Origin: Flavobacteriales bacterium
GTDB lineage: Bacteria; Bacteroidota; Bacteroidia; Flavobacteriales_D; Sanyastnellaceae
Direction: 5' to 3'
Assembly (NCBI GenBank): GCA_002863125.1
Contig: PKEB01000003.1
Span: forward strand, 1 to 52,401
DNA: 52,401 bases
How positions within the stretch are numbered: position 1 is the first letter of the stretch; every line of letters starts with the position of its first letter. Positions 1 through 44,600 of this stretch are shown piece by piece. A program made the translations under genes and the position numbers. The notes under the pieces were generated by a model. That model made no database searches, was not told the DNA's origin, and was given only the letters and a program-made list of their open reading frames with translations.

Positions 1-1224
1 ACCTTGGCCATCCTGAACACTCACCAACGAGCCAAAGACACCCGTAACAACACCGTTGGTCACCACCGTCGTGCCTGTGTAAGCATCCGTCAATTGCCCT
101 TCCTGGATGGCAGCGATCGCTGTCGTCGTTACCTCCAAGCATGAACCGTCATCGAAATCAGCTGCTTCGTTGTAGTTCGGTGCTGCCGCGTTGGTGCAAC
201 CACCGGTACCGACCGTCACCGTTCCGACCATGCCCAAGGCAGCGTGTGTGCCAACTGAGCAGTCGTAAGAGTACACTCCGGGAATGGTGAAGGTGAAACT
301 GCCAATGCATACGGCTTCGCCGCTGGAGCTAACAGGAGAGAAGAAGAAGTCTTCTGGGTTACCAAAGGACTCACCGGTCAACGTATTGGTGGTGCCGTTG
401 GCGTTGTGTGATCCGCCTACGTTTTCCCATACTACTGTAGTACCAGGTTCGATGGCGAGGTCTTGCGGGCTGAAGTAGAATCCGCCAGCCGTGACGACCA
501 CCCCGTCGACGTTGCATGCATTGTCAAACGTGCACGAGCCATCATCTTCTGTGGCGTCGGCATTGTAGTTGGACGCGTTTTCGTTGGTGCAACCGGGCAC
601 TGCCGCTCCACAATTTCCGGTGAAATCGTGTGAACCGAGGTAGTCCCAAACGTTATTGTCAAGGACAATCCATTGCGAGTCATCGGCGTTCGTGCCAGCC
701 GCTGTAGCCCAATCGTAGCCCACGCCCATGGTCACGTCGCTCTTGCGCACCAACGTGTGGTTTTGCGTTCCGTTGGATGTTCCTGCAACCTCCCAGCCTG
801 AACCGGGATCGGCGTCCCAGTTTCCAATGACGTCCAGAATGGTGAATGAATCCTCGGTTCCTTCTACCAATGCATAGCCATCATCACCGTTGGAGAGGTA
901 CTGGTGCGTTTCATTCGCAAAAGCCAAAATTGCAGCATCTGCAGAGGGGTGAGCAATCACATAAACCCCACCTGCAGCAATGGTCGCTCCTTCATCGAAG
1001 GCATTCCAGAATTCGTATTCACCGGGTACGCTCGGAGCATTGCTTGTGCTCGGGTAAGCGTAGCCGCTGAGGTCGATGGCCTCGTTGGTAGGGTTGTAAA
1101 TTTCGAGGTACTTGTTATTGCTGCTCCCTTCGGCATATTCCGAGAAAAACAGCCCGCACTGCGCGGATCCAGACAAATTCGCTCCGAAGAACAAAGCCGC
1201 CAGCAACAGGTTGAGTGAACGCAT
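1..1224 (-). CDS. Secreted lamin-tail / cupredoxin / OB-like protein (3' end outside window)
   Basis: 408 codons are open from the ATG at 1224 to the window edge with no stop, so the C-terminus is missing. Residues 1-21 are a signal peptide with Gln at the predicted mature N-terminus (SGSA|QCG). Residues about 24-165 look like a lamin-tail domain (SEYAEGSSNNKYLEIYNP, then a YVIAHPSAD segment). Residues about 235-340 form a plastocyanin-like cupredoxin with a full type 1 copper ligand set: H273, C322, H327 and M332 (C-x4-H-x4-M). Two Cys-bounded loops of the type CTN...YN...DDGSC (211-231 and 343-362) flank the cupredoxin; such loops are common in flavobacterial surface proteins. From about 366 the sequence resembles the OB-like domain that precedes extracellular nuclease or other catalytic domains. 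The missing part may carry that domain and a type IX sorting signal; this is inference. Redox or copper function is likewise inferred from the ligands. Confidence 0.85.
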   Translation of the reverse strand, partial: MRSLNLLLAALFFGANLSGSAQCGLFFSEYAEGSSNNKYLEIYNPTNEAIDLSGYAYPSTSNAPSVPGEYEFWNAFDEGATIAAGGVYVIAHPSADAAILAFANETHQYLSNGDDGYALVEGTEDSFTILDVIGNWDADPGSGWEVAGTSNGTQNHTLVRKSDVTMGVGYDWATAAGTNADDSQWIVLDNNVWDYLGSHDFTGNCGAAVPGCTNENASNYNADATEDDGSCTFDNACNVDGVVVTAGGFYFSPQDLAIEPGTTVVWENVGGSHNANGTTNTLTGESFGNPEDFFFSPVSSSGEAVCIGSFTFTIPGVYSYDCSVGTHAALGMVGTVTVGTGGCTNAAAPNYNEAADFDDGSCLEVTTTAIAAIQEGQLTDAYTGTTVVTNGVVTGVFGSLVSVQDGQG

Positions 1225-8898: not shown

Positions 8899-10386
8899 TC
8901 ACAAGTTCATGCGGATGGACAGGTTGATTTCAGTTTGTGCAGAGGTCAATGTCAACATATTGTCGCCGACTTCCAGTGCGGCCGGCCGATTGGAACGGAC
9001 AACCGCGGCCAACCACGACCAACCATTTGGGTGGTTGAATTGCAGCAGGGAGGCCATTCGGTAGCCCGATCCGGAAAGCATCCGGTAGGAAGTCCCAATC
9101 GACGATGGCTCCGGGATGTAGGCCCGTCGCCCGGCATCAAGCGTCCAGGTTGTAACGCTTTGCTTGAACCTCCAGGCGCCGAATTGGTAGGCGAAAAACG
9201 CGCTCACCGCACCCGGTGCCCCTTCATCCGCAAATGGAATCAGCGTGAAGCGAAAAGCCAGCGGGTCCACCTTCCAGTGCCCGCGAAATTCCAACCGTTG
9301 GCTCGCCCGCGCATCGGGTCCACTTGTCTGTGCTGTGCGCCAGTGTACTTCTACTGCCACGCCCTCCGGCCATTCCCGTCTGCATTTAATCCACAAAGGA
9401 TGCACGTCGCTTCGGTTGCCCCACTCGACGTGCCAGCGGACGAGCCAGTGGTCGCCCCTCCATTCTCCGCCCGCCGAAGCCTCCAGATCCAGTTCCATGG
9501 TGCCATCGGGTTTGAACACCTCGAACCGCAGCCGGGCTTCATTGGTGCGCTCGTGAAGCCACTGACAGGCACCACTCAGCCCCCATCCATGGTTCAGCCG
9601 ACCGGCCTCCGCAATCCACTGGCGCATGCCCGACAACCCCTGCACATAAGCGGTGGCAGCAAACTTGCCGCCACCCGTTCGGGCAATGAGGCCGTGTTGG
9701 CCGTTGCCTCCAATCACCGCTGCCACGTCGCCGTCAACAGCATCGACACTCAAGGTAGACGCCACGCGACCCTCCCGGTGCACCACCATCCCGCTCCGTG
9801 TGTCGTGCGTTTTCGGACCCCACATCGGCGCAAATCCATACTGCACCGGTAGAGCGAAAGAAGGCACATCCAAGCCGGCAAACAGGACCCCTTCACCCAC
9901 CAGCATCCGGTTGCCCCAGCCCAACCGATGTCCACCAAGGAGTGCACGCCATTGGCCGCCTCGGCCGACGGATGCTTGCACGTAGCCCGTCACAGCTGCC
10001 GCACCGTGATCCCAGCGCAAGCCCCATTTTCCCGGGTTTCTCAAGCGGACAGAGTGCACACCCATTGACCGAGCAAACCGCCCCTCTGCTGCAAGGCCGC
10101 GACCCGTGGCCTGGCGCTGGGCGCGGTCGACCAAGTGTTGCCACTCCACGTTCTGCATCAAGGCTTGAGCGGCCGCATGGGTAAGGCCTTGGATGGCCCA
10201 CGCTTCTTCAAGCGCAATGGGCGCTCCTGTCCGGTCCAAATGGTCCAAGATGCACAGGCGCTCCTGTCCACTGAGCCACCCTGAGTTGACCTGTTCGGTC
10301 AATGCAGCGTCCAGCTCCTGCCACTGGCCGTGGAGCGTCGTGACGAAGCCATAAACCCCAAGCAACAACCAAAACATCCGCACCAT
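8899..10386 (-). CDS. Helix-hairpin-helix / outer-membrane beta-barrel-like protein
   Basis: 495 aa. Residues 1-20 are a signal peptide ending LHG with Gln next (G|QWQ). Residues about 30-80 (WLSGQERLCILDHLDRTG, then the AWAIQGLTHAAAQALM segment) match the modified helix-hairpin-helix region of a Bacteroidota family in which that module precedes a large barrel-like domain. The rest (about 110-495) is a series of alternating, aromatic-rich strands such as QWRALLGGHRLGWGNRML and FAFRFTLIPF-like pieces, consistent with a barrel. The start is ATG 10386 (or 10377), nine bases after the preceding stop; the long upstream extension lies inside the neighbouring gene. Function unknown. Despite the DNA-binding-like motif the signal peptide argues for an envelope location. 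Confidence 0.7.
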   Translation of the reverse strand: MVRMFWLLLGVYGFVTTLHGQWQELDAALTEQVNSGWLSGQERLCILDHLDRTGAPIALEEAWAIQGLTHAAAQALMQNVEWQHLVDRAQRQATGRGLAAEGRFARSMGVHSVRLRNPGKWGLRWDHGAAAVTGYVQASVGRGGQWRALLGGHRLGWGNRMLVGEGVLFAGLDVPSFALPVQYGFAPMWGPKTHDTRSGMVVHREGRVASTLSVDAVDGDVAAVIGGNGQHGLIARTGGGKFAATAYVQGLSGMRQWIAEAGRLNHGWGLSGACQWLHERTNEARLRFEVFKPDGTMELDLEASAGGEWRGDHWLVRWHVEWGNRSDVHPLWIKCRREWPEGVAVEVHWRTAQTSGPDARASQRLEFRGHWKVDPLAFRFTLIPFADEGAPGAVSAFFAYQFGAWRFKQSVTTWTLDAGRRAYIPEPSSIGTSYRMLSGSGYRMASLLQFNHPNGWSWLAAVVRSNRPAALEVGDNMLTLTSAQTEINLSIRMNL

Positions 10387-10394
10387 GTCCACCT

Positions 10395-11111
10395 TCAACA
10401 CGCATCCAGTCCCAGCACCAAGCTCATGCCCTGATGCCGAATCCCCCGAATGATGCCAACCGACCATCTGTGCGTCCCCCATTCCCGGCTGCCGAGAATC
10501 CCCAAAAATCCAGGCAGCATGCGCCAACAGACCCCCACATACGATTGAGCATCCAACCGAGTTAACCACTGCCACTCCAGTGCGGCTCCAGCTCCTGTCC
10601 ATGTGCAGCGGGCGTGCAAGCGCCGTTCGTTGCGTTCAACAACCCCCTTCAACTGAATCACCAATTCCTCCCTTGCTTGAACGTGTGGCAACGGACCTTC
10701 TGGGGCGAATGCAATGCCCAGCGTTACCGTTTGGCCATCGTTCCCTTGGCCGCGAATGAGTGCGTGTAGATTGGGGCGCACGGTCCAGCGAACCCCGTTC
10801 GCTGGCAGCCACCTTCTGGCCATACACCCCATGCGGAGCTGGGCCGCTACCTGCGGGGTCAACTTGACTTGCGTCCCAGCGCAAACCGCCAAACGACTAA
10901 ATGTCCCTATTTGGGTGAAGCCCCATGCGACCACACCGAACTCCGGCAAGAGCGTTTGCTGCTGCAGGGCAAACGTCTCCCCCGCGCTCCAGGAATGCAC
11001 ATTCAACGAAGCCGTTTGAATCCAAGGCACATCTTGCACCCAACCCGGCTGTTGTCCAATGCCAACTAACGGCATCACAACCGCCAACGCCACCCCACTC
11101 ACCCCTCGCAT
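10395..11111 (-). CDS. Small secreted protein of unknown function, probably outer membrane
   Basis: 238 aa from ATG 11111; in-frame ATGs at 11123 and 11159 are possible but would put a charged tail before the signal peptide. Signal peptide 1-19 (VGIG|QQPG), again Gln at the expected cleavage site. The mature part is rich in Trp and Gly with alternating hydrophobic strands and ends in GLDAC, which suggests a small barrel or porin-like shape; no domain is recognised. It sits between an LptA-like gene (69 bases upstream) and the hairpin/barrel protein (starts 8 bases after this stop), so the three are likely one transcription unit for envelope proteins. Confidence 0.7.
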   Translation of the reverse strand: MRGVSGVALAVVMPLVGIGQQPGWVQDVPWIQTASLNVHSWSAGETFALQQQTLLPEFGVVAWGFTQIGTFSRLAVCAGTQVKLTPQVAAQLRMGCMARRWLPANGVRWTVRPNLHALIRGQGNDGQTVTLGIAFAPEGPLPHVQAREELVIQLKGVVERNERRLHARCTWTGAGAALEWQWLTRLDAQSYVGVCWRMLPGFLGILGSREWGTHRWSVGIIRGIRHQGMSLVLGLDAC

Positions 11112-11179
11112 CAATCCCCCCATCCGAGGCGGCAAGTTGGCATCCGAACACCGACGCAAGCCACGAAATGCAGGGACGG

Positions 11180-12712
11180 CTACTCGCGCTTCACTTCCGG
11201 CGCATTCACCCAGTTTAACCCCTCCAATAGGGGCGCATCAGCATCACCCGATTTCCACTGCCCTTCCGGGCGATCCAACAGGACAATGCGTTTGACCTCA
11301 CCTTCATCAAAGTCCATCCGCATCTTGCTGCACAACGACTGGTTGAATTCAGCGCATGGCGCATCGGCCTCGCTATCGAAATAAACGCTTTGCGCATTGC
11401 CATTGACCCAAACGGCCTCCAAGGCATTCGAGGCGAAACGACCGGTAATTTCCCGGCCGGCGATTTGCTGGTAACACGCCCCGCTGTCAATGGGCATCAT
11501 CAAACTCGCATGGCCCGCCGCACGCAGCGATTCGGGGCGATTTTCCACCACGGCCCATTCCAACGAATCGGACTGGAGCAACCAGCCTTCCATCCACATT
11601 TTAGGGCGGCGCAAGAGCTGAACGCGGTCTGCATCGGTATTCCAAATGAGTGTATCACAGGACGCTGAGGCATCGCCTTGGCTCAATTCAACCGCCGGCC
11701 AAACGGTGGTCAACCCGCCCAGGACGGAGATTGTATCGGCCACCAGCTTCAACGTGTCCTCCTCCCCGGCGTCAACCCAACACGCCCGCCGCTCCGGTTT
11801 CCCGGCAACCCAAACGTCAAATTCTTCGCCCCGCTCCAACCGTTCAGCGTAATGCCCTGACAACGTCCACAATTCCAAGGTATCCGTAATGTCCACCTCC
11901 CCCACGGCAGTGGCAGGGAGCAAGGTGTCTGGCGGAAGGTGAACGCTATCGGCCTCGAGCCACACCTCGTCGTTGCGCAACTCAACCCCGGGAGCGCCGG
12001 CGCCCCCAAACCACCCCGACTCGGTCTCCACATCAAATTCGCCGCTGCTGCACCGCAGTTCAAAGCGCTCATCCGTCGTACGCAGGTGACTTGGACCGTG
12101 AAACGAAAATTCATCCACTTCTTCCCGCCAATGCAGGCTGTCGGAGTCCAAGGTGTAATCCGCGTTGTCCATGTGCACCGAACCTCCGAGCATCAGCAAC
12201 GCCGTCTTGGCTTGGTATTGACCGTGTTGAAACTCAACCGACCGGCCGTCGTCTTGCAATCGCCCGCCCGAAGGCAACAGGGCCACTTCCCGCTTCAAAT
12301 GGTAACGCAAAACCGTACACGTCAACTGCCCGACCTCTGCATCCAACTGCACGCGGCGGTCCGCATCGGATTTGGCCCGCACCCACTGGGTCTCCGGGTT
12401 CAGCTCCATTTCATCGGCCCGCAGGGTTTGAGGACCGTCCGTCAACTGCACATTGCCCATGGTCCGGAAGGTTCCATCGTCATACCGCCAGGCGCTATCG
12501 CACCGCAAACGGCTGTCCTCCATGCCCAAGAGCACCCCGCCAATCAACCGCTGCACATCGGGTTGCGAACGGTCCCGAAGGATGGCGTCCGCTTGCAGAA
12601 TTTGGATGCGAATGGGTTCGCTTTCCTGGGCCGATGCGACCACGGCGACAGCTCCGGCAAGGCCTAACAAGAGTGCGCGCAACCGATTTTGAAAAGGGCA
12701 TCCGAAATTCAT
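11180..12712 (-). CDS. LptA/OstA-like lipopolysaccharide transport protein
   Basis: 510 aa. Signal peptide 1-28 (ASA|QESEP) and then an OstA-type beta-jellyroll region: IQILQADAILRDRS, ADEMELNPETQWVRA and YTLDSDSLHW show the repeating strand pattern of proteins that bridge LPS across the periplasm. Classical LptA is about 180 aa; this belongs to the long OstA-like proteins of Bacteroidota, in which the pattern is repeated through the chain. It may serve as LptA together with the lptC gene in this window (33451). The start is ATG 12712; a 63-codon upstream extension is just the reverse complement of the tRNA-Leu gene and its flank. Two unknown envelope genes follow in the same direction. Confidence 0.83.
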   Translation of the reverse strand: MNFGCPFQNRLRALLLGLAGAVAVVASAQESEPIRIQILQADAILRDRSQPDVQRLIGGVLLGMEDSRLRCDSAWRYDDGTFRTMGNVQLTDGPQTLRADEMELNPETQWVRAKSDADRRVQLDAEVGQLTCTVLRYHLKREVALLPSGGRLQDDGRSVEFQHGQYQAKTALLMLGGSVHMDNADYTLDSDSLHWREEVDEFSFHGPSHLRTTDERFELRCSSGEFDVETESGWFGGAGAPGVELRNDEVWLEADSVHLPPDTLLPATAVGEVDITDTLELWTLSGHYAERLERGEEFDVWVAGKPERRACWVDAGEEDTLKLVADTISVLGGLTTVWPAVELSQGDASASCDTLIWNTDADRVQLLRRPKMWMEGWLLQSDSLEWAVVENRPESLRAAGHASLMMPIDSGACYQQIAGREITGRFASNALEAVWVNGNAQSVYFDSEADAPCAEFNQSLCSKMRMDFDEGEVKRIVLLDRPEGQWKSGDADAPLLEGLNWVNAPEVKRE

Positions 12713-30614: not shown

Positions 30615-32031
30615 TCCCACCCCAACCAATCACCCGACCTTGGGACGGCTGGCCCTCGCGGCGCTTGGGGTGGCCCTGCTTTGCTCCATCTCGGGTGCGG
30701 CTCAGCAATCTGAGCTCTCGCCTTACTCCCGCTACGGATTCGGCTTGATTGGGCAGCTTCAAGCACCCGCCTACGCAGGCATGGGCGGCATGGAAACCAC
30801 GATGCTCACCGGCTTCCAGTTCCAGCCCAACAACCCGGCTTCAGCTACCTACCTCAGCCAGACCACGTTTCAAGCTTCCGGCATCGCCAATCAATTGCAG
30901 TTGAAACAAGGCGAAGCATCCGCATCAGCAGCGTTTGGTTCTCCCGGGCCCTTCGGAATTGTGGTCAAACGCAACGGCGGCAAAAATGCACTTATCCTCA
31001 ACCTCTCGCCGTACAGCAACTCCGGGTATGCCATTACACTGAGTGATCCCTACGATGGCATTGGTTCGGTAAATCAGCGGTACGAAGGTGACGGGGGGTT
31101 GAGCGCGCTGAACATTGGTTGGGCACGGGTATTTAAAGGGTCAAAACGTGTGCCGGCCGGAAACGACAGCATTCGAATCCAAAGCAATGCGCTGCACCTT
31201 GGGATTCAAACGCATCATCTGTTTGGTCAAATCAGCCGAACATCGACGGTTGACATCATCGACCCCACATTCCTGGACCACCGCAACCGATTCACGGCAC
31301 AGCACCGCAGTATCACGGCCAATGCCGGGATCGTCTACGACCAACTGCTGCACGTACGTTACAACGGCCGAGGAGATTTTGAGCAGAGCTTGTCCCTGCG
31401 CATGGGCGGCGTATTCACTCCGTCCACCAACCTGCACAGCTCGTTGGTCAGCATCGACGAAACGACCCAAACATTGGGCGGCATCCCCGTTCCATTGGAT
31501 ACGGCATTCTACAGCGAGCGCCTCGACTACCGCGCCCGGATGCCCCGGAGCTTCAGCTTGGGGAGCAGCTTCCACTTCGACCGCGGCGACGGCATGCGCG
31601 TCGCGGCTGGCATCGAATACAAGGCATCAGCATGGGATGATGTCGCCGCTGATTTTGCGCCAGAGATGCAATCCGACGGCGTTGAATGGATGGCCGCCGA
31701 ATCCATGCACCTCGGGCTGCAATTCAACCTCGGTAGCCCCGAACAACGTCACCCCACATGGGGCAAAGCGACGTACCGACTGGGTGTGAATCGCCAGCGC
31801 CAGCCTTACGCTGTCAACGGCCACCAGGTGCAAACCCAAACCATCACTGGCGGCTTTACCCTCCCTCTTGTCGGCAGCCGTTCCTTGAGCCGTTTGCATT
31901 TCGGCACGGAAGTTGGAGAACGCTTTACGCAAGAAGGTGCGCTGGAAGAAACATTCTTCCGGTTCCATTTCGGCGTCTCCCTGATGCCCTTCTTCAAGAA
32001 CAATTGGCTGATACCAAGATTATATGACTGA
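30607..32031 (+). CDS. Outer membrane beta-barrel protein of the coaX-lptC cluster
   Basis: 474 aa. Signal peptide of about 32 residues (SGAA|QQSEL), followed by SPYSRYGFGLIG and a repeated pattern of amphipathic strands with Gly-rich turns, ending FGVSLMPFFKNNWLIPRLYD. It resembles the FadL/OmpP1-like barrel proteins of Bacteroidota; the SPYSRYGFG opening is typical of this unnamed conserved family next to coaX. A transport or assembly role in the outer membrane is inferred. The start overlaps coaX by 8 bases. A TPR protein follows after 13 bases. Confidence 0.8.
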   Translation: MSNPTPTNHPTLGRLALAALGVALLCSISGAAQQSELSPYSRYGFGLIGQLQAPAYAGMGGMETTMLTGFQFQPNNPASATYLSQTTFQASGIANQLQLKQGEASASAAFGSPGPFGIVVKRNGGKNALILNLSPYSNSGYAITLSDPYDGIGSVNQRYEGDGGLSALNIGWARVFKGSKRVPAGNDSIRIQSNALHLGIQTHHLFGQISRTSTVDIIDPTFLDHRNRFTAQHRSITANAGIVYDQLLHVRYNGRGDFEQSLSLRMGGVFTPSTNLHSSLVSIDETTQTLGGIPVPLDTAFYSERLDYRARMPRSFSLGSSFHFDRGDGMRVAAGIEYKASAWDDVAADFAPEMQSDGVEWMAAESMHLGLQFNLGSPEQRHPTWGKATYRLGVNRQRQPYAVNGHQVQTQTITGGFTLPLVGSRSLSRLHFGTEVGERFTQEGALEETFFRFHFGVSLMPFFKNNWLIPRLYD

Positions 32032-32044
32032 TAAAACCAACACC

Positions 32045-33430
32045 ATGAAATTGATCATCCGCGGAATCTTAGCGATGTTGATTGCGGCGCCTGCCTTGGT
32101 AAGCGCTCAAGACCGCTACGGAGAGACAGAGGAACAGCAGATCCTGTGCAAAGAAGCCATCAGTGTATACGTGAGCTACAAGAAGCAGAAGAACTACGAC
32201 GAAGCCTTCATCCAGTGGAAAAAGGCGTGCGACGTATGCCCTCCAACCGCTCGTGAGGGCATGTACTCTGACGGCGTCCGTTTTTTGAAAAACGAACTCA
32301 AGAAAACGGAAGATGAAGCCCGCACTCAGGCACTGCAGGACAGCATCTTCCTGCTTTACGATCAGCGCATGGAGCTTTTCCCGAGCACTAGCAAAAAGCC
32401 CAACAACCGGTGCCGAATCCTCGCCTACAAAGCGACCGATTACTACCGCTTATTCAAAAAGGACGGCGCGGCTGTAGCCAACGCCATGTTCAAGGAAAGC
32501 ATCGACTGCCTGGGCGCAGCGTCCTCGCCAGCGACACTCAGCACGTACTACGTGACTTCATTCTACGCCATGAAGCGAATGGAAGACGACGCAGAAGCGA
32601 AAGCCAAGTTGGGTGAAATGTTGACTGAGTACCTCACCTTGATGGACTACCTCGACCAAGGCATTGCGACGGCAACGGCCGCCGGAAAAGCCGATGCTGT
32701 TGAGGACTACACGAAAGCAAAAGGGAACTTGGACGAGGTGTTCATCGCCATCGCCCAGTGCGAAGACATGGTTCCAGTATTGAGCGAAAAGGTCGCCGCC
32801 GATTCAGCCAACTTCGAATTGAAGCAAAAGGTGTTGCGCCTGTTGAATCAGAAGGATTGCACCGACAACGACCTGTACTTGCCGGTAGCCATCGAGGTTC
32901 ACAACGAAACGCCGAGCCACCCTTCAGCGTATGCCATTGGCAACGAGCAGGCCAAGGTGGAGAACTTCGGCGAGGCGTTTGCCTACATGGAAGAGGCTGT
33001 TGCGCTTTGTGCCGACTGCGCAGAGTTGGAGGTCTACTTGCTGAAGGCAGGAAAAATCGCTTCGTTCTTGGGCAAATCGAGCACGGCGCGTTCATACGCT
33101 CAGAAGGTACTGGCCAATAACCCCGAAAGCGCGGAAGCCTACATGCTCATTGGCGACGCCATCGCCGGTGCTGCGAAGCAGTGCGACGACGGCGCTTTGG
33201 GCAGCCGCTTGGCGTACTTGCGTGCGTGCGATTACTACGGCATGGCCATCAGCCGGGGCGACGAAGACATCAAAGCCACCGCCAAGAAAAAGCTCAACGC
33301 GAACAGCAAACAGTTCCCAAGCGTTGACGAAATCTTCGCGGTCGGAAAGTCCACAGGCGACGCCATCACGATTCCTTCCATTGGCGGGTGTCCGTGTGCG
33401 GGTGAATCCACCACGATCCGCGTGCGCTAA
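32045..33430 (+). CDS. Secreted tetratricopeptide-repeat protein
   Basis: 461 aa. Signal peptide 1-21 (ALVSA|QDR). The mature chain is helical with TPR-like units, for example YVSYKKQKNYDEAFIQWKKA and, near 310-390, NEQAKVENFGEAFAYMEEA. Several Cys pairs (ACDVCPP, CADCAE, and CPCAG near the end) suggest disulphides in the periplasm. No catalytic motif. An upstream ATG at 32024 would add 7 residues and overlap the preceding gene; ATG 32045 gives a better signal peptide. It lies between the barrel protein and lptC, so an accessory role in envelope assembly is plausible. Confidence 0.82.
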   Translation: MKLIIRGILAMLIAAPALVSAQDRYGETEEQQILCKEAISVYVSYKKQKNYDEAFIQWKKACDVCPPTAREGMYSDGVRFLKNELKKTEDEARTQALQDSIFLLYDQRMELFPSTSKKPNNRCRILAYKATDYYRLFKKDGAAVANAMFKESIDCLGAASSPATLSTYYVTSFYAMKRMEDDAEAKAKLGEMLTEYLTLMDYLDQGIATATAAGKADAVEDYTKAKGNLDEVFIAIAQCEDMVPVLSEKVAADSANFELKQKVLRLLNQKDCTDNDLYLPVAIEVHNETPSHPSAYAIGNEQAKVENFGEAFAYMEEAVALCADCAELEVYLLKAGKIASFLGKSSTARSYAQKVLANNPESAEAYMLIGDAIAGAAKQCDDGALGSRLAYLRACDYYGMAISRGDEDIKATAKKKLNANSKQFPSVDEIFAVGKSTGDAITIPSIGGCPCAGESTTIRVR

Positions 33431-35712: not shown

Positions 35713-37767
35713 ATGTCAATGATTCAAGAAATTCGAAACCGACAAGGCCTGCTGATTGTGATGATCGGCATCGGCATGCTCGGTTTTTTGGTTCCCTATG
35801 ATGCCGTGATGGCCTTGTTTGGCCAAAACGGAAGCCGCGACGTCGGCGAAGTAAACGGGGTGGCCGTATCCGGTGCACAGTACCAAATGGAAGTTCAAGA
35901 GCGACGCCGCTTGGGATTCAGCGGTGACCAATTGGCCGAGGAGGTATGGAACGATATCACGTCTGAAATCGTGCTCGAGGACGACTTTGCCGCATTGGGA
36001 TTGACGGTCAGCGACGAGGAGTATGAAGAGATGCTGTTCGGTACAGCTTTCTCTCCCTACATGAACCGAGCGTTCTACTCCAACGCGGAGACCAAGGGAT
36101 TCTGGCAGCAGAATTTCGATGCGATGCTGGGCACCGACCGAGGCGTCGCCGATTTCATGTCCTACAAGCGACTCATCGTGGCCAAGCGCATTCGAGAGAA
36201 GTACGACAACCTCGTCGTCTCAGGCATCTACTCCAACTCACTTGAGGGCAAGTACGACCACGCCGGTGCGAACCAAAAAGTGAACTTCAACTACGTGTTC
36301 AAGTCCTTCAGCTCCATCGATGAGTCTGAAGTTGAGGTCACCGACCGCGACGTCAAGGCATACTACAACGCCCACAAGGACGAAGCCCAGTACAAGCAAA
36401 ATGCCGGACGCAACATCACATTCGCACGCATCCCGCTGCAAGCTTCTGCGAAAGATGCCGCAGCCATTGAAGAGGAGTTGAGTGCGGTCAAGACGGTGTG
36501 GGAAAACACCGAAGCCAGCGACAGCTTGTTCGTGGCCAATGAAAACGAAGGGCCCTTCACGGCTACCGTTTTGCGCAAAAGCGATGTGGAGACCGACGTA
36601 AACGAAGCCACCTTCTTCGACGCGAAAGAGGGCGACCTCATCGGTCCTTACCTCAAGAAGACCAGCTACCGATTGGCCAAGGTCATGGAGTTCTTCAGTG
36701 AGCCCGACAGTGCCGCGTGCCGTCACATCTTGCTCAAGGCCAATGACCCACAGGATGCCGAAGAGATGGCCGTTCTCATGGGCCGTGCCGACAGCCTCAA
36801 GCGCGCACTGCGCCGAGGTGCCTCGTTCGAGGACTTGGCCGAACGCTTCAGCGAAGACCCCGGTTCCAAATCGAAAGGCGGATTCTACGATCTGTTCCCA
36901 CGCGGTCGGATGGTGAAGCCGTTTGAAGATTTTTGCTTCGAAAACAAGCCAGGCAAAATCGGAGCCGTTGAAACTTCTTTCGGTGTTCACTTGATTGAAG
37001 TCATGGAGCACACCGACGCAGTAGAGCAGGTACGTGTGGCCCTCATTGAGCGGGCCATCGAGCCATCAACCTCAACAGCCCGTGAGTCGTACGGCGCTGC
37101 AAGCGAGTTTGCCATTCAGGCGACATCCCGTGAGGCGTTCATGCAAGCAGCCGGTGACGCGGGGTACGCGACCAACACAGCAAACGATGTCCTGCGCAAT
37201 GCAAAATCGGTTTCCGGTTTGCGCAACGCTTCTGAGCTCGTAGGCTGGGCATACGGAGCAGAGGTGGGAGAAGTATCCAACCCCATCCTCGTTGACAAAA
37301 ACTACGTGGTTGGCTACCTCGATCGCATCACCGAAGAGGGCGCCCCGTTGTTCGAATACGTCGAAAACGAAATGCGCACCGGTGCCGTGAAGGAAGCCAA
37401 GGGCGCGCTTTACAGCGAGCGCATGGCCGCAGGCTCGTTGGATGAGATCGCCACGAACGTAGGAGCATCCGTAGCCAGCGCGACCAACATTGCATTGAAA
37501 TTCCCTACCGTCAGTGGAGCCGGCTCGCTGCCTGAACCCGAAGTGGTCGGTATGGCCTTTGCCATTCCTGTTGGGAATGTCTCCGCTCCCATCATAGGCA
37601 ACAACGGCGTGTGGGTCATTGCACCGACTTCCACCACCGACGCAGTGGTCAAGTCCGATTACCTCACAGAACAAACGACCTTGTTGTCACGTGCCCGCGG
37701 CGCAGCGACCATCCGCATCTCGAATGCCATGATGGACGCAGCTGACTTGGAAGACAACCGAAACTAA
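35713..37767 (+). CDS. ppiD: PpiD/SurA-like periplasmic peptidyl-prolyl isomerase
   Basis: 684 aa. A single N-terminal membrane anchor (about 13-31) is followed by a SurA-N-like chaperone region and a parvulin (PPIC) domain at about 335-440 (RHILLKANDP, GASFEDLAERFSEDPGS, GGFYDLFPRGRM). A second, degenerate parvulin-like region follows. It folds outer membrane and secreted proteins at the periplasmic face of the inner membrane. It has its own -7 box and is closed by a strong terminator, so it is a single-gene unit. Confidence 0.92.
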   Translation: MSMIQEIRNRQGLLIVMIGIGMLGFLVPYDAVMALFGQNGSRDVGEVNGVAVSGAQYQMEVQERRRLGFSGDQLAEEVWNDITSEIVLEDDFAALGLTVSDEEYEEMLFGTAFSPYMNRAFYSNAETKGFWQQNFDAMLGTDRGVADFMSYKRLIVAKRIREKYDNLVVSGIYSNSLEGKYDHAGANQKVNFNYVFKSFSSIDESEVEVTDRDVKAYYNAHKDEAQYKQNAGRNITFARIPLQASAKDAAAIEEELSAVKTVWENTEASDSLFVANENEGPFTATVLRKSDVETDVNEATFFDAKEGDLIGPYLKKTSYRLAKVMEFFSEPDSAACRHILLKANDPQDAEEMAVLMGRADSLKRALRRGASFEDLAERFSEDPGSKSKGGFYDLFPRGRMVKPFEDFCFENKPGKIGAVETSFGVHLIEVMEHTDAVEQVRVALIERAIEPSTSTARESYGAASEFAIQATSREAFMQAAGDAGYATNTANDVLRNAKSVSGLRNASELVGWAYGAEVGEVSNPILVDKNYVVGYLDRITEEGAPLFEYVENEMRTGAVKEAKGALYSERMAAGSLDEIATNVGASVASATNIALKFPTVSGAGSLPEPEVVGMAFAIPVGNVSAPIIGNNGVWVIAPTSTTDAVVKSDYLTEQTTLLSRARGAATIRISNAMMDAADLEDNRN

Positions 37768-40199: not shown

Positions 40200-41690
40200 A
40201 TGGCCGAGTTTTCCCCGTTGTACATCCAGAACAGCTTGACCCGCAAAAAGGAGTTGTTCACTCCGCTCAATGCGCCTTACGTTGGTATGTACGTGTGTGG
40301 CCCAACGGTGTACAGCAACGTGCACCTCGGGAACGTTCGCACATTCCTGACGTTTGATGTGGTGTACCGGTACCTCACGTTCCTCGGCTACCAGGTCCGC
40401 TACGTCCGGAACATCACGGATGTCGGTCACTTGACGGGAGACTCCGACGACGGTGAGGACAAAATCGGCAAGAAGGCCCGGCTCGAAAACCTCGAGCCGA
40501 TGGAGATTGTCCAGAAGTACACCAACGACTTTCACGATGTCATGCGCGTCTTCAACATGAAGTCGCCGTCCATCGAGCCCAGTGCCACCGGCCACATCGT
40601 GGAACAAATCGAGATGATCAAGGCCATCCTCGATCGCGGGTACGCCTACGAATCCAATGGTAGCGTCTACTTCAACGTGCGCAAGTACAACGAAGACCAC
40701 GATTACGGTGCGCTCTCAGGCCGCAAGATTGACGACCTCCTCAACAACACGCGCTCCCTCGATGGGCAAGACGAGAAAAACGACCCATTGGATTTTGCCT
40801 TGTGGAAAAAGGCCGATGCCTCACATTTGATGAAGTGGCCTTCGCCTTGGAGCGATGGCTTTCCCGGCTGGCACCTCGAATGTTCGGTAATGAGCACGAA
40901 GTACCTCGGAACCCAGTTCGACATCCACGGCGGTGGGATGGATTTGAAATTCCCCCACCACGAATGCGAAATCGCGCAAAACACCGGGGCAACCGGTGAG
41001 GCCCATTCGGTTCGGTATTGGATGCACGGCAACATGCTGACCGTGAACGGACGCAAAATGGCCAAATCCGAAGGCAATGGCTTCACACCGGAAGAATTGA
41101 TCTCCGGCAACCACGCCTTGCTCGAACGCGGGTACTCGCCGATGACGGTTCGTTTCTTCATGTTGCAAGGCCACTACGCCTCCACTCTGGACTTCTCCAA
41201 TGAAGCACTGCAGGCGGCAGAGAAAGGACTGGATCGCCTGATGAGCGCCATGGCCTCCTTGGATGGACTGCCCACAGCGTTGGATGCACCAAATGCAGAC
41301 GTGGACACGGCTGCCCTGGCCAAGCGATGCAGCGAAGCCATGGGCGACGACTTCAACACTCCGATTTTGATCAGCGTTTTGTTTGATGCAGTCAAACTGG
41401 TCAATAGCATTGCGTCTGACCGAATCGCCATTGATTCCTCCCAAAAAGCGGCGTTGGTCGAGCTCCTAAACGGCTATGTTTTTGACGTGCTCGGCCTGAC
41501 TCGGGAAGACGAAACAAGCGGCAGCAGTGATGGCGAGTCTGGCGCCCTACTCGACCTCTTGGTCGAATTGCGTGGGAACGCCAAAACCAACAAGGATTGG
41601 GGCACGGCCGATGCCATCCGCGATGCCCTTGGCGCCCTGGGCATTTCCATCAAGGACAGCAAAGACGGAAGCACATGGGAACGCGACTGA
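40200..41690 (+). CDS. cysS: Cysteinyl-tRNA synthetase
   Basis: 496 aa class I synthetase. Zn ligands are C33 in [12 protein letters not shown], Cys in WHLECSVMS and His/Cys in [10 protein letters not shown]. The HIGH-like motif is HLGN (42-45) and the KMSKS loop is KMAKSEGNG at about residue 286. The ATG at 40200 starts [13 protein letters not shown]; a 59-codon in-frame extension lies inside tdh and the spacer and is rejected. The last 16 bases overlap the start of the glutaminyl-cyclase-like gene, so the two are coupled. No convincing -7 box is seen; it could read through from tdh. Confidence 0.97.
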
Positions 41691-42685
41691 CATCCGCATT
41701 CCTCCTCGGCTTCGCAGCATTGCTGCTTGTGCGTTGCGGCAGTGAACCTGCTGCCCCGCGCTCAGCCCCCAAACCGACCGAAATCCAAAAAGCCCGCGTC
41801 GCAGCGCCGGCATTCAATGCCGATTCCGCCTACGCGTACATCGCTCAACAAGTCGCATTCGGACCGCGCGTCCCCAACACCCCTGAGCACGTCGCCTGCG
41901 GGGATTGGCTCTCCCGGGAATTGACCCGGCATGGTGCCGATGTCATCGAACAGCCTGGCTTGGTTCGGGCGTACGACGGAACCATTCTGCGCATCCGCAA
42001 CTTCATCGGCCAGTTCCGACCGGAAAACCGGGAACGCATCTTACTTTTTGCTCATTGGGACACGCGTCCCTTCGCCGATAAGGATACGCTGCGCATGCGC
42101 GAACCCATCGATGGTGCCAATGATGGGGGTTCGGGCGTGGGCGTGCTGCTGGAAATTGCGCGCCTCCTTGGGGCGGATTCGACGTTGGACGTGGGCGTGG
42201 ACATCGTTTTTTTCGATGCCGAGGATTATGGCACCCCCGAGTGGGGTGAGAAAAACCAAAACTCCGCCTTGACGTGGTGCCTCGGTAGCCAATACTGGGC
42301 CAATCAGCCGCACCGCATCGGGTACAACGCCAAGTACGGAATCCTCCTGGACATGGTGGGTGCTGAGGGCGCAGTCTTCAACAAAGAAGGCACCTCCATG
42401 GCATATGCACCAACGGTCGTTAAGCGCCTGTGGGAGTCCGCCGAGCGCTTAGGGTACGGCGACTATTTCAAACGAGACGTGACGCCTGAGACCATCGACG
42501 ATAACCTGTTCGTCTCGGAGTTCGCCGGAATTCCATCGGCCAACATCGTTCATTACCAAGTGCAAGTGTTGCCGATGGGCTATGGCCCCTTCCACCACAC
42601 CCACGCCGACAACCTGTCCATCATCAGCACCGCGACCCTCGAGGCCGTCGGCAACACGGTCCTCGATGTCGTTTGGAACGACTGA
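41675..42685 (+). CDS. Glutaminyl-peptide cyclotransferase-like M28-fold lipoprotein
   Basis: 336 aa. A lipoprotein signal ends at C21 (LLLVRC). The domain is the M28 fold of type II glutaminyl cyclases, with [15 protein letters not shown] near the start. Visible active-site residues are H127 in [10 protein letters not shown]150 in [10 protein letters not shown] (zinc), E183 and D184 in FFDAEDYG, D226 in LLDMVG, and H308 or H310 in FHHTHADN (zinc). Bacterial type II enzymes turn N-terminal Gln of exported proteins into pyroglutamate. A generic M28 aminopeptidase is the alternative, but a single-zinc pattern and the FGPRVPNT opening favour the cyclase. The start overlaps cysS by 16 bases. Confidence 0.84.
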
Positions 42686-42773: not shown

Positions 42774-44600
42774 ATGATGCGCAGGCCCTTCATTTTGAAC
42801 CGCTGTTCAGCTCCCTACAGAAGGGCGGCCATGCTGCTGCTCACCGCAGGGATTTGGGTTGCAGGGGGATTACCTGCTGCAGCAAACGACGAGGCTGCGC
42901 AAGCGGTGACAACTGATTCTTCCATCGAAGAGGCCGACCTCATGCTCGACCGCGGAGACTCCCTGCTTACCCTCAACAAACCGGTTGCAGCCTTGTCCAT
43001 GTACCGCGGAGCCGTCGAGCGCACGTTTGACCCTTGTCAGCAAGCCCGTGCGCAGGTTGGAATTGCGCAGATCTACACGGACAGCAACAACCCCAATCTG
43101 GCGTTGGCTGCACTCGAACAGGCGCAGCGTGGGTTCTTGGCGTGCGAAGCCGAACTGCGAACGCGCATCGTTGTGCAAGCCGCCGACCTCTGGTTGCAGC
43201 TGCATTTTGAAGACCGAGCCATAGCGCTCATTCAACGTGAACTCGATCTCAATCCGGGATGCACCCAGTTGAATTCCAAACTCGCCGACCTCTGGTTTAC
43301 GGGCGGACATTGGGAAAAAGCCCGCGCCCAATACGCCAAGTGCATTCGCCTCTGCCCCAAACAAGCCCATGACCTGCGTGCCGATTGGATCGGTGCAATC
43401 ATCCAAATCGACGGCGTTCAAGGCCGGGCACCCGGGGACTCCCTCCGTGATCAATTCGAGCAGGAGGCAACCTATCTGGCCCCTTCAGTGGCCCAGGGAT
43501 TTCGGGAACAAATTCACCTCGTCCTCTCCATGCAGGGGTTGCACATGGCGGCGCTGCAATGGGCGCAAACCATCTTGGACGAAACGCCGGCCACCGACGC
43601 AGCACGTTTTGCTGTAGCTCACCTTCGAACAGCCAACAGCGCACAATTTGCCCACCGTCCGCTCGACGCTTTGATTGGCTACCACGAGGCCATCAAGTCC
43701 GCTCGGATCGCAGGCGATCTGACCTTGCTGTCGGAAGCATTGCGCCAGAAAGGACTTTTCGAAAAAGACCGGGGCAATCACGAAGAAGCCCTGCAGGCCT
43801 TCATCGAGTTGGATGAGATCCAATCTGAACGCCTTGCTCGCCAGCCGCAACCATCTGGGCGGGAGGCAAGGCAATTCGAAGAGCAGGTGCTCCCGGCCAT
43901 GGATCCGTTCGACGTGGCGGCATTCGAGCTCGAACGCGCGCAATACTCTCCGTACCGGTCAACCAGTTGGCCTTGGATTGCCGGCATTCTCGCCATTGGT
44001 GTCATCGCATACGCACGGCAACAGCGCTACCTCCGTTCAGCCCTTCACAAAGAGCGCCGGCGGATCATTCGCCTGCGGTCATTGGTTCCCGCCGACCGCC
44101 TGCCGGGCACTTCACCCAAAACGGTCGAAAGCGAAGTCGAATTGGGCACGAGCAGCTTGATGCCAAGCGGTGAATTCATCCAAACGGGCGACGGCGACGC
44201 GCGGTCCCAATCGATTCAGGCGTTCTTGAACGAATTGGACGCCGACTTGCAGAACCGCATTCAATTCAACATCAAGGAGGATGTTCAATTCAGCATCGGT
44301 CCTGAAGTTCGGGTGGTGTTGCGCAACCTGCTCAAGGGACTGGTGGACCTCACAGCGGAGGACCGCCCCCTTGCATTGGGTGTCGAGGCTACGGCAAAAT
44401 CCCATTGGGTGCTGCAGGTAGATAGCCAGCACACCGGCGCCTCCAAGGCGTTCGAAGGGCTCTTCTATGGCAAGGATGCATTGGCATCGTCGCGCTGGAA
44501 TGAGCTGCATGCCCAGCTCCGCAAACTTGCCGGGAAAATCAACATCGAGCGGCTTTCCCCCCTCGAGGAACGGCTCACGTTAACGCTGCCTTACCTGTAG
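42774..44600 (+). CDS. TPR receptor-like membrane protein with degenerate histidine-kinase ATPase domain
   Basis: 608 aa. Signal peptide to about 37 (ATG 42774; ATG 42831 is a shorter alternative). The periplasmic part (about 50-390) is a set of TPR-like helices, then one transmembrane helix (399-413), a basic coiled stretch (RQQRYLRSALHKERRRIIR), and a C-terminal domain (508-608) shaped like a histidine-kinase ATPase: RVVLRNLLKGLVDLT aligns to the N box, KAFEGLFYG to the F box, and ERLTLTLPYL to the last strands. The N-box Asn is Gly522, the G1 glycines are lost, and the G2 GTGLGL motif is absent, so it should not bind ATP in the usual way. No DHp box is seen. Convergent with pheS. Confidence 0.72.
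   Translation: MMRRPFILNRCSAPYRRAAMLLLTAGIWVAGGLPAAANDEAAQAVTTDSSIEEADLMLDRGDSLLTLNKPVAALSMYRGAVERTFDPCQQARAQVGIAQIYTDSNNPNLALAALEQAQRGFLACEAELRTRIVVQAADLWLQLHFEDRAIALIQRELDLNPGCTQLNSKLADLWFTGGHWEKARAQYAKCIRLCPKQAHDLRADWIGAIIQIDGVQGRAPGDSLRDQFEQEATYLAPSVAQGFREQIHLVLSMQGLHMAALQWAQTILDETPATDAARFAVAHLRTANSAQFAHRPLDALIGYHEAIKSARIAGDLTLLSEALRQKGLFEKDRGNHEEALQAFIELDEIQSERLARQPQPSGREARQFEEQVLPAMDPFDVAAFELERAQYSPYRSTSWPWIAGILAIGVIAYARQQRYLRSALHKERRRIIRLRSLVPADRLPGTSPKTVESEVELGTSSLMPSGEFIQTGDGDARSQSIQAFLNELDADLQNRIQFNIKEDVQFSIGPEVRVVLRNLLKGLVDLTAEDRPLALGVEATAKSHWVLQVDSQHTGASKAFEGLFYGKDALASSRWNELHAQLRKLAGKINIERLSPLEERLTLTLPYL

Follow-up and report, generated by a model that had tools for sequence, protein, structure and literature searches.

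The window analysed here, 52,401 nucleotides from a Flavobacteriales bacterium (assembly GCA_002863125.1, contig PKEB01000003.1, positions 1 to 52,401), raises the question of whether the gene at positions 41675 to 42685 of the forward strand encodes a type II glutaminyl cyclase (QC), and whether such an enzyme would act on the Gln residues that signal peptidase I (SPI) leaves at the front of exported proteins. The best explanation, in which we have high confidence, is that the gene product is a sole, membrane-held QC with a single zinc ion that forms pyroglutamate on exported proteins, and that the rim of its active site has been altered in the clade of the window. This explanation is based on homology, the predicted fold, the catalytic and zinc residues, the failure to find a second QC in the genome, and an excess of Gln at predicted signal-peptide sites; the formation of pyroglutamate, the single zinc and the side of the membrane are deduced from these. 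The altered rim, absent from the initial annotation, is the only part of the case that is not routine.

The reading frame opens with ATG and encodes 336 residues (codon score 106). Peptidase_M28 was the sole Pfam family above the cut-off (1.2e-30). A phmmer search of the PDB brought Bacteroidota QCs to the top, 6qro (3e-100) being followed by 3tc8, 4fuu, 3gux, 7cje and 6qql, all at about 2e-86 or better; these structures come from P. gingivalis, T. forsythia, B. thetaiotaomicron and P. distasonis. In the same search an aminopeptidase, 6hc6 of B. subtilis, reached only 5e-5. An AlphaFold2 model built from 45 homologues had a mean predicted local distance difference test score of 91.7. As suggested in the initial annotation, the model was aligned to solved structures. 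With VIA-align, it fitted the Bacteroidota type II QCs over the full-length fold with Z scores of 41-50 at 0.7-1.2 Å, and the two-zinc M28 aminopeptidases with Z scores of 30-32 at 2.0-2.6 Å. Because both the PDB matches and the structural fits favour the Bacteroidota QCs, the window protein groups with the bacterial QCs, and the claim of a type II QC at this position is borne out by homology, fold and motifs.

The motifs that had been read in the protein, HWDTR, GANDGG, FDAEDYG, DDN and HHTH, are all present. In the 45-sequence alignment the zinc ligands D150, D184 and H308 are invariant and match D149, D183 and H299 of the P. gingivalis enzyme (PgQC). Equally invariant are E183, D226, D275 and H127, which match E182, D218, D267 and H124 of PgQC; the acidic-cluster residues and H124 are named in the available text of PMC8709289. 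W201, the equivalent of PgQC Trp193 at the pocket edge, is nearly invariant. According to the accessible part of PMC7948796, the first zinc Asp is followed by Gly in QCs and by Asn or Asp in aminopeptidases, which also carry Tyr at the Trp298 position. Neither aminopeptidase hallmark is found in the window protein: D150-G151 (42122-42127) combines the zinc ligand with the QC-type Gly, and position 298 corresponds to His307. The pair E183-D184 (42221-42226) provides the catalytic Glu and the Bacteroidota-type zinc ligand. With these residues the enzyme would bind a single zinc ion, and the window QC and its relatives probably cyclise N-terminal Gln.

The Bacteroidal type II QCs (PgQC 6qql/7cjg, TfQC 6qro, BtQC 4fuu/7d1d and PdQC 3tc8) are 50-54% identical to the window protein over the structural fits. 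Common to all are the zinc ligands, the catalytic acids, the D-G pair, Asp as third ligand and the Cys of the N-terminal lipobox. The window protein differs from them by Thr for L265, Tyr for F294, His for W298, Asn for the His of the DDH motif, and an Arg ahead of the lipobox Cys. Type I QC (plant-type, beta-propeller, PF05096) carries out the same reaction in the same pathway with an unrelated fold.

Several of these differences concern the entrance of the active site, described in the inhibitor paper PMC8709289 (available part) as a lipophilic ring of Y187, W193, L265, F294 and W298. The entrance positions were taken from that paper and from PMC7948796 and not from the coordinates of the model. 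Their counterparts in the window protein are P188, W201, T273, Y303 and H307, P188 lying in a variable loop that was aligned by eye. PMC7948796, in its accessible part, names W298 and F294 as residues that distinguish QCs from aminopeptidases, and the window protein has Tyr303 and His307 in their place. We treat this Phe294/Trp298 pair as typical for a type II QC and not as defining, because the Trp is also missing from 22 of 60 homologues sampled across the class.

A set of 81 QCs (80 search matches and the window) was then sorted by these positions. N277, T273 and Y303 occur together in 48 of them, with H307 in all 47 that have a letter at that position; the remaining 33 carry His at 277, and Trp (27) or His (six) at 307. 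T273 (42491-42493), the equivalent of PgQC L265, is Thr in 48/48 clade members and Ile or Val in 27/27 QCs with Trp at 307, and Y303 (42581-42583), the equivalent of PgQC F294, is Tyr in 48/48 and Phe in 27/27. N277 (42503-42505), where the DDH motif ends in His, is Asn in 48/48 and His in the 33/33 others. The alignments place H307-H308 at 42593-42598, H307 standing in place of PgQC W298 and H308 being the third zinc ligand listed above. The search patterns behind this set were biased towards the window's own peptides, so loci from a whole-gene search were read too. For the order these covered, apart from the window's own, 69 of 104 genomes with a type II QC (29 top-scoring and 40 chosen across lower scores), and for the class 60 of 169, chosen across families. 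His was found at position 307 in all 69 loci of the order. Of the 49 loci of the window's family (f1), 35 had N277, whereas the 20 loci of two other families, f3 and f13, all lacked it. In the class sample the position corresponding to PgQC 298 was His in 22 of 60 and Trp in 38. One QC from outside the window's family (L193, genome G273, family f49) also carries N277, Y303 and H307.

On a tree of 104 rows built without these columns (reduced from 150 rows by leaving out near-copies), position 277 needs one change, position 303 two and position 307 three. Because of these numbers, the data fit an older change of Trp to His at 307, followed by the changes at 277 and 303. On an 85-row tree of the class, poorly resolved with 10 of its 82 inner branches starred, position 277 needs four changes, and one of its states is Tyr. 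The Asn-Tyr-His set marks the window clade plus one QC elsewhere, L193, which may have gained it by convergence or by transfer. Judged from these alignments, the rim of the clade's pocket seems to have become more polar, with T273, N277, Y303 and H307 instead of Leu/Ile/Val, His, Phe and Trp. A literature search, mainly of open literature and without supplements, recognised no paper on these rim changes, which is weak evidence. Three QCs lie on contigs labelled Euryarchaeota or Saccharospirillaceae (L033, L039, L054) and group with Flavobacteriales; these are likely mislabelled contigs of metagenome-assembled genomes. Names given to such genomes hint, tentatively, at a marine habitat for the clade.

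Is another QC available to the cell? Searches of the genome (98.7% complete) with the window protein and with PF05096 brought up no further QC; PF05096 had no match in the window protein itself, and an NCBIfam scan for a second QC gave weak matches far under the cut-offs, with no QC among them. Five genes of the genome match the M28 model, the window gene included. As read from their motifs, two of the paralogues are aminopeptidase-like (HYD, D-D or D-N, E-E, Tyr-His), one resembles carboxypeptidase Q and one is M42-like. Because the other M28 matches do not look like QCs from their motifs and PF05096 is absent, the window gene is the only QC found in the genome.

Among 199 genomes of the window's order, 105 had a strong type II match, 84 a type I match and none both. 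Five weak type II matches, in genomes that all hold a type I QC (G021, G091, G103, G118, G155), were set aside as other M28 proteins; 69 unmatched genomes of the type II search were not listed by name. Type II genes occur in f1 (66 genomes), f3 (33) and f13 (6), and type I genes in f2, f4-f6 and f8-f11. We take it that no genome of the window's family lacks the type II gene, which all 66 listed hold, because the unmatched rows, ordered by kinship, begin outside the family. Among 198 genomes of the class, type II was present in 169, type I in 31 and the two together in 9; weak matches were dropped from these counts (G216, G231, G235, G261, G297, G387, and also G202 and G272). The Bochtler survey (PMC5837995, available part) describes animal-type QCs as typical of Bacteroidia and plant-type QCs as typical of Flavobacteriia, with 63 species holding both, whereas the order of the window has type II in three families, type I in others, and never both. 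Type I QC is absent from 21 of the 22 class genomes with His307 and from 37 of the 38 with Trp307. If the His307 enzymes had lost their activity, a type I QC would be expected to be kept in those genomes. Since all but one of these His307 genomes, and every type II genome of the order, lack it, and since the window's own genome has an excess of Gln at predicted signal-peptide sites, these data argue indirectly that the altered pocket still does the work of a QC.

This Gln excess was evaluated in the window and 20 further stretches of its genome (452 kb, about 20% of the genome). A home-made predictor that ignores the letter at P1', the first position after the cut, was applied, and signal-peptide-like proteins with an allowed SPI site and no later membrane helix were counted. 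Of 59 such proteins, 42 have Gln directly after an allowed site, against a Gln content of 3.8% in the region downstream. The identical rule gave 2 of 18 in E. coli K-12 (200 kb; Fisher p 1.3e-5), a small control from four hand-picked stretches, one of them rich in ribosomal genes. Among the 17 proteins without Gln, several resemble cytosolic or anchored proteins by eye. When a single best site was forced, Gln was found at P1' in 28 of 63 proteins with a score of at least 7, and by eye many of the misses had been placed one A-x-A ahead of a site that does have Gln after it. The rule of any allowed site was adopted because forced sites often fell early in this manner; it lifts the count that chance would give for any residue (Ala 20/59, Thr 10, Glu 5). 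Further downstream of any allowed site, Gln was raised at P3' (23/59), which is in part expected from overlapping sites, and stood at 12 for P2', 10 for P4' and 15 for P5'. Both the prediction that P1' Gln would be commoner than expected and its fit to the known Bacteroidota tendency therefore held, 42/59 being equal to the phylum mean of 71% in Bochtler 2018 (PMC5837995, available part). That work and Szczesniak 2023 (PMC10653852, likewise) describe Gln after most SPI sites together with one QC facing the periplasm. The Gln pattern is this published Q-rule; rule and enzyme are already known, and the window is a further case.

Could the gene instead encode an M28 aminopeptidase with two zinc ions whose likeness to a QC is superficial? 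Its only Pfam family above the cut-off is Peptidase_M28, the aminopeptidases 6hc6, 2ek8, SgAP (1tf9) and the Vibrio enzyme (3b35) have the same superfamily and fold (Z 30-32), and the distinguishing W298 and F294 are missing; also entered on this side is the His of HxD, retained as it is in QCs. However, these enzymes differ from the window protein by two zinc ions, by Asn or Asp after the bridging Asp and by a Tyr at the Trp298 position, where the window protein has His (PMC7948796, accessible part). Sequence and fold place the protein with the solved Bacteroidota QCs, far from the aminopeptidases, and its D-G and E-D pairs are of the QC type, against the D-D or D-N, E-E and Tyr-His of the two paralogues in its own genome. 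An aminopeptidase is thus extremely unlikely. It is very unlikely, too, that the protein descends from a QC and has become, through its altered rim, inactive or specific for something other than N-terminal Gln. The joint difference of several entrance positions in one clade, and the single change that N277 needs on the 104-row tree, would suit such a history; the invariance of the catalytic and zinc residues, the presence of the gene in all listed family genomes, the lack of type I QC from every type II genome of the order and the Q-rule followed in the own genome all speak against it. A third reading, that the P1' Gln reflects what signal peptidase or folding favours rather than the substrate set of this QC, draws on the fact that the census records an excess of Gln and not its cyclisation. 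As reported in the available text of PMC10653852, P. gingivalis cannot do without its QC, and no inactive mutant of the enzyme could be obtained, which makes this alternative exceedingly improbable.

Some observations weigh against a membrane-held QC that serves the exported proteins. The animal QC structures fit the model no better than the aminopeptidases do (both Z 30-32). The genes flanking the 35 loci with Asn277 give a lower share of Gln (5/12); the flanks of the 14 other f1 loci gave 11/21 and those of the 20 f3 and f13 loci 8/12, the genes being few and related in all three groups. Finally, the lipobox of the QC carries an atypical Arg at -1 (41732-41737), a residue found there in the QC alone among 23 lipobox-like starts of the own-genome sample. 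The signal peptide (41675-41737) ends in a lipobox-like LLLVR/C with the cut before Cys, and this residue, Cys21, is kept in at least 90% of the 45 alignment rows. If the lipobox were not processed, the uncleaved leader could still tether the enzyme to the membrane. The residue at +2 relative to the lipid Cys is Gly, in agreement with the signal for inner-membrane retention proposed in PMC10653852 (available part). Among close relatives, Arg also occupies -1 in L008, L009, L014 and L052; L007 has a His there.

In the mechanism that we favour, proteins would be exported by Sec and cut by signal peptidase I, leaving Gln as first residue. The QC, anchored through its N-terminus on the periplasmic side of the inner membrane and carrying one zinc ion, would convert the exposed Gln to pyroglutamate, which probably shields the exported proteins from aminopeptidases. 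In the window clade the unchanged chemistry would proceed through a pocket with a more polar rim. Export, cleavage, cyclisation and protection have been reported or proposed for P. gingivalis (PMC5837995 and PMC10653852, available parts).

The window itself holds candidate substrates. Six proteins whose signal peptides expose Gln had been described as encoded beside the QC, a loose wording for genes that lie 8-40 kb away. Five of them are well-supported genes with good codon scores and were recovered by the script blind to P1': the LTD/cupredoxin protein (1-1206, reverse strand, running off the window; Pfam LTD and Copper-bind), cut at GSA/Q; a barrel-like exported protein of unassigned family (8902-10401, reverse), without a Pfam or NCBIfam match, at LHG/Q; the LptA/OstA-like protein (11183-12682, reverse; OstA_2 4.1e-15) at ASA/Q; the BamG-like barrel of the coaX cluster (30640-32031, forward; NF053685 5.9e-48, 163.9 bits, under the cut-off of 250) at GAA/Q; and a TPR protein (32024-33430, forward; TPR_14 above the cut-off) at VSA/Q. 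The sixth, a small secreted frame with GIG/Q (10398-11126, reverse), is the weakest case, with a codon score of about -3; a search of 39 further genomes of the order, of which five belong to its family and none to its genus, gave no match. It sits between the LptA-like gene and the gene of the next exported protein.

The TPR-like protein encoded downstream of the QC (42774-44600, forward; several Pfam TPR models, TPR_14 just above the cut-off) had been named as the only non-lipoprotein export signal that does not expose Gln, and as a pseudokinase. It reads AAA/N, as claimed, and none of its Pfam matches at E 0.01 was to a kinase; the PpiD-like protein at 35719-37767 is one more candidate without Gln. 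By eye, the PpiD-like signal has the appearance of a membrane anchor. All 15 loci of the genus contain a match to the TPR-like protein, any TPR similarity being counted.

Upstream of the QC lies cysS, the gene of cysteinyl-tRNA synthetase (40200-41690, forward; tRNA-synt_1e 4.6e-98, DALR_2 and CysS_C). Its last 16 nucleotides overlap the start of the QC gene, whose start codon overlaps a Trp codon near the end of cysS (41675-41690), and almost every locus of the window's genus, as well as 5/5 loci of f13, shows the identical overlap. In f1, cysS precedes the QC on the same strand in all 48 loci with upstream sequence (L108 has no upstream DNA). The QC starts at most 60 nucleotides from the cysS stop in 46 of these, the others being L125, with an unresolved start, and L148, where the genes lie 0.7 kb apart. 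Both genes adjoin in 5/5 f13 loci, in some loci of other orders and in 0/15 f3 loci. We considered this adjacency as a functional clue and take it instead for an inherited operon.

We propose tentatively, at slightly less than an even chance, that the clade has rebuilt the entrance of its sole QC from hydrophobic to more polar and that the enzyme still processes a secretome obeying the Q-rule. If this is true, residues held to be common to every type II QC would be dispensable, and the clade's enzymes would differ in how they bind substrates and inhibitors; the extra His beside the zinc His might take part in this. The QC of P. gingivalis is a proposed drug target as well as essential, and a Pedobacter QC (PedgQC) is functional in that species (PMC10653852, available part). 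Natural QCs in which three or more of the five ring residues are missing reveal how much latitude the rim has, and offer a ready test of the role of Trp298.
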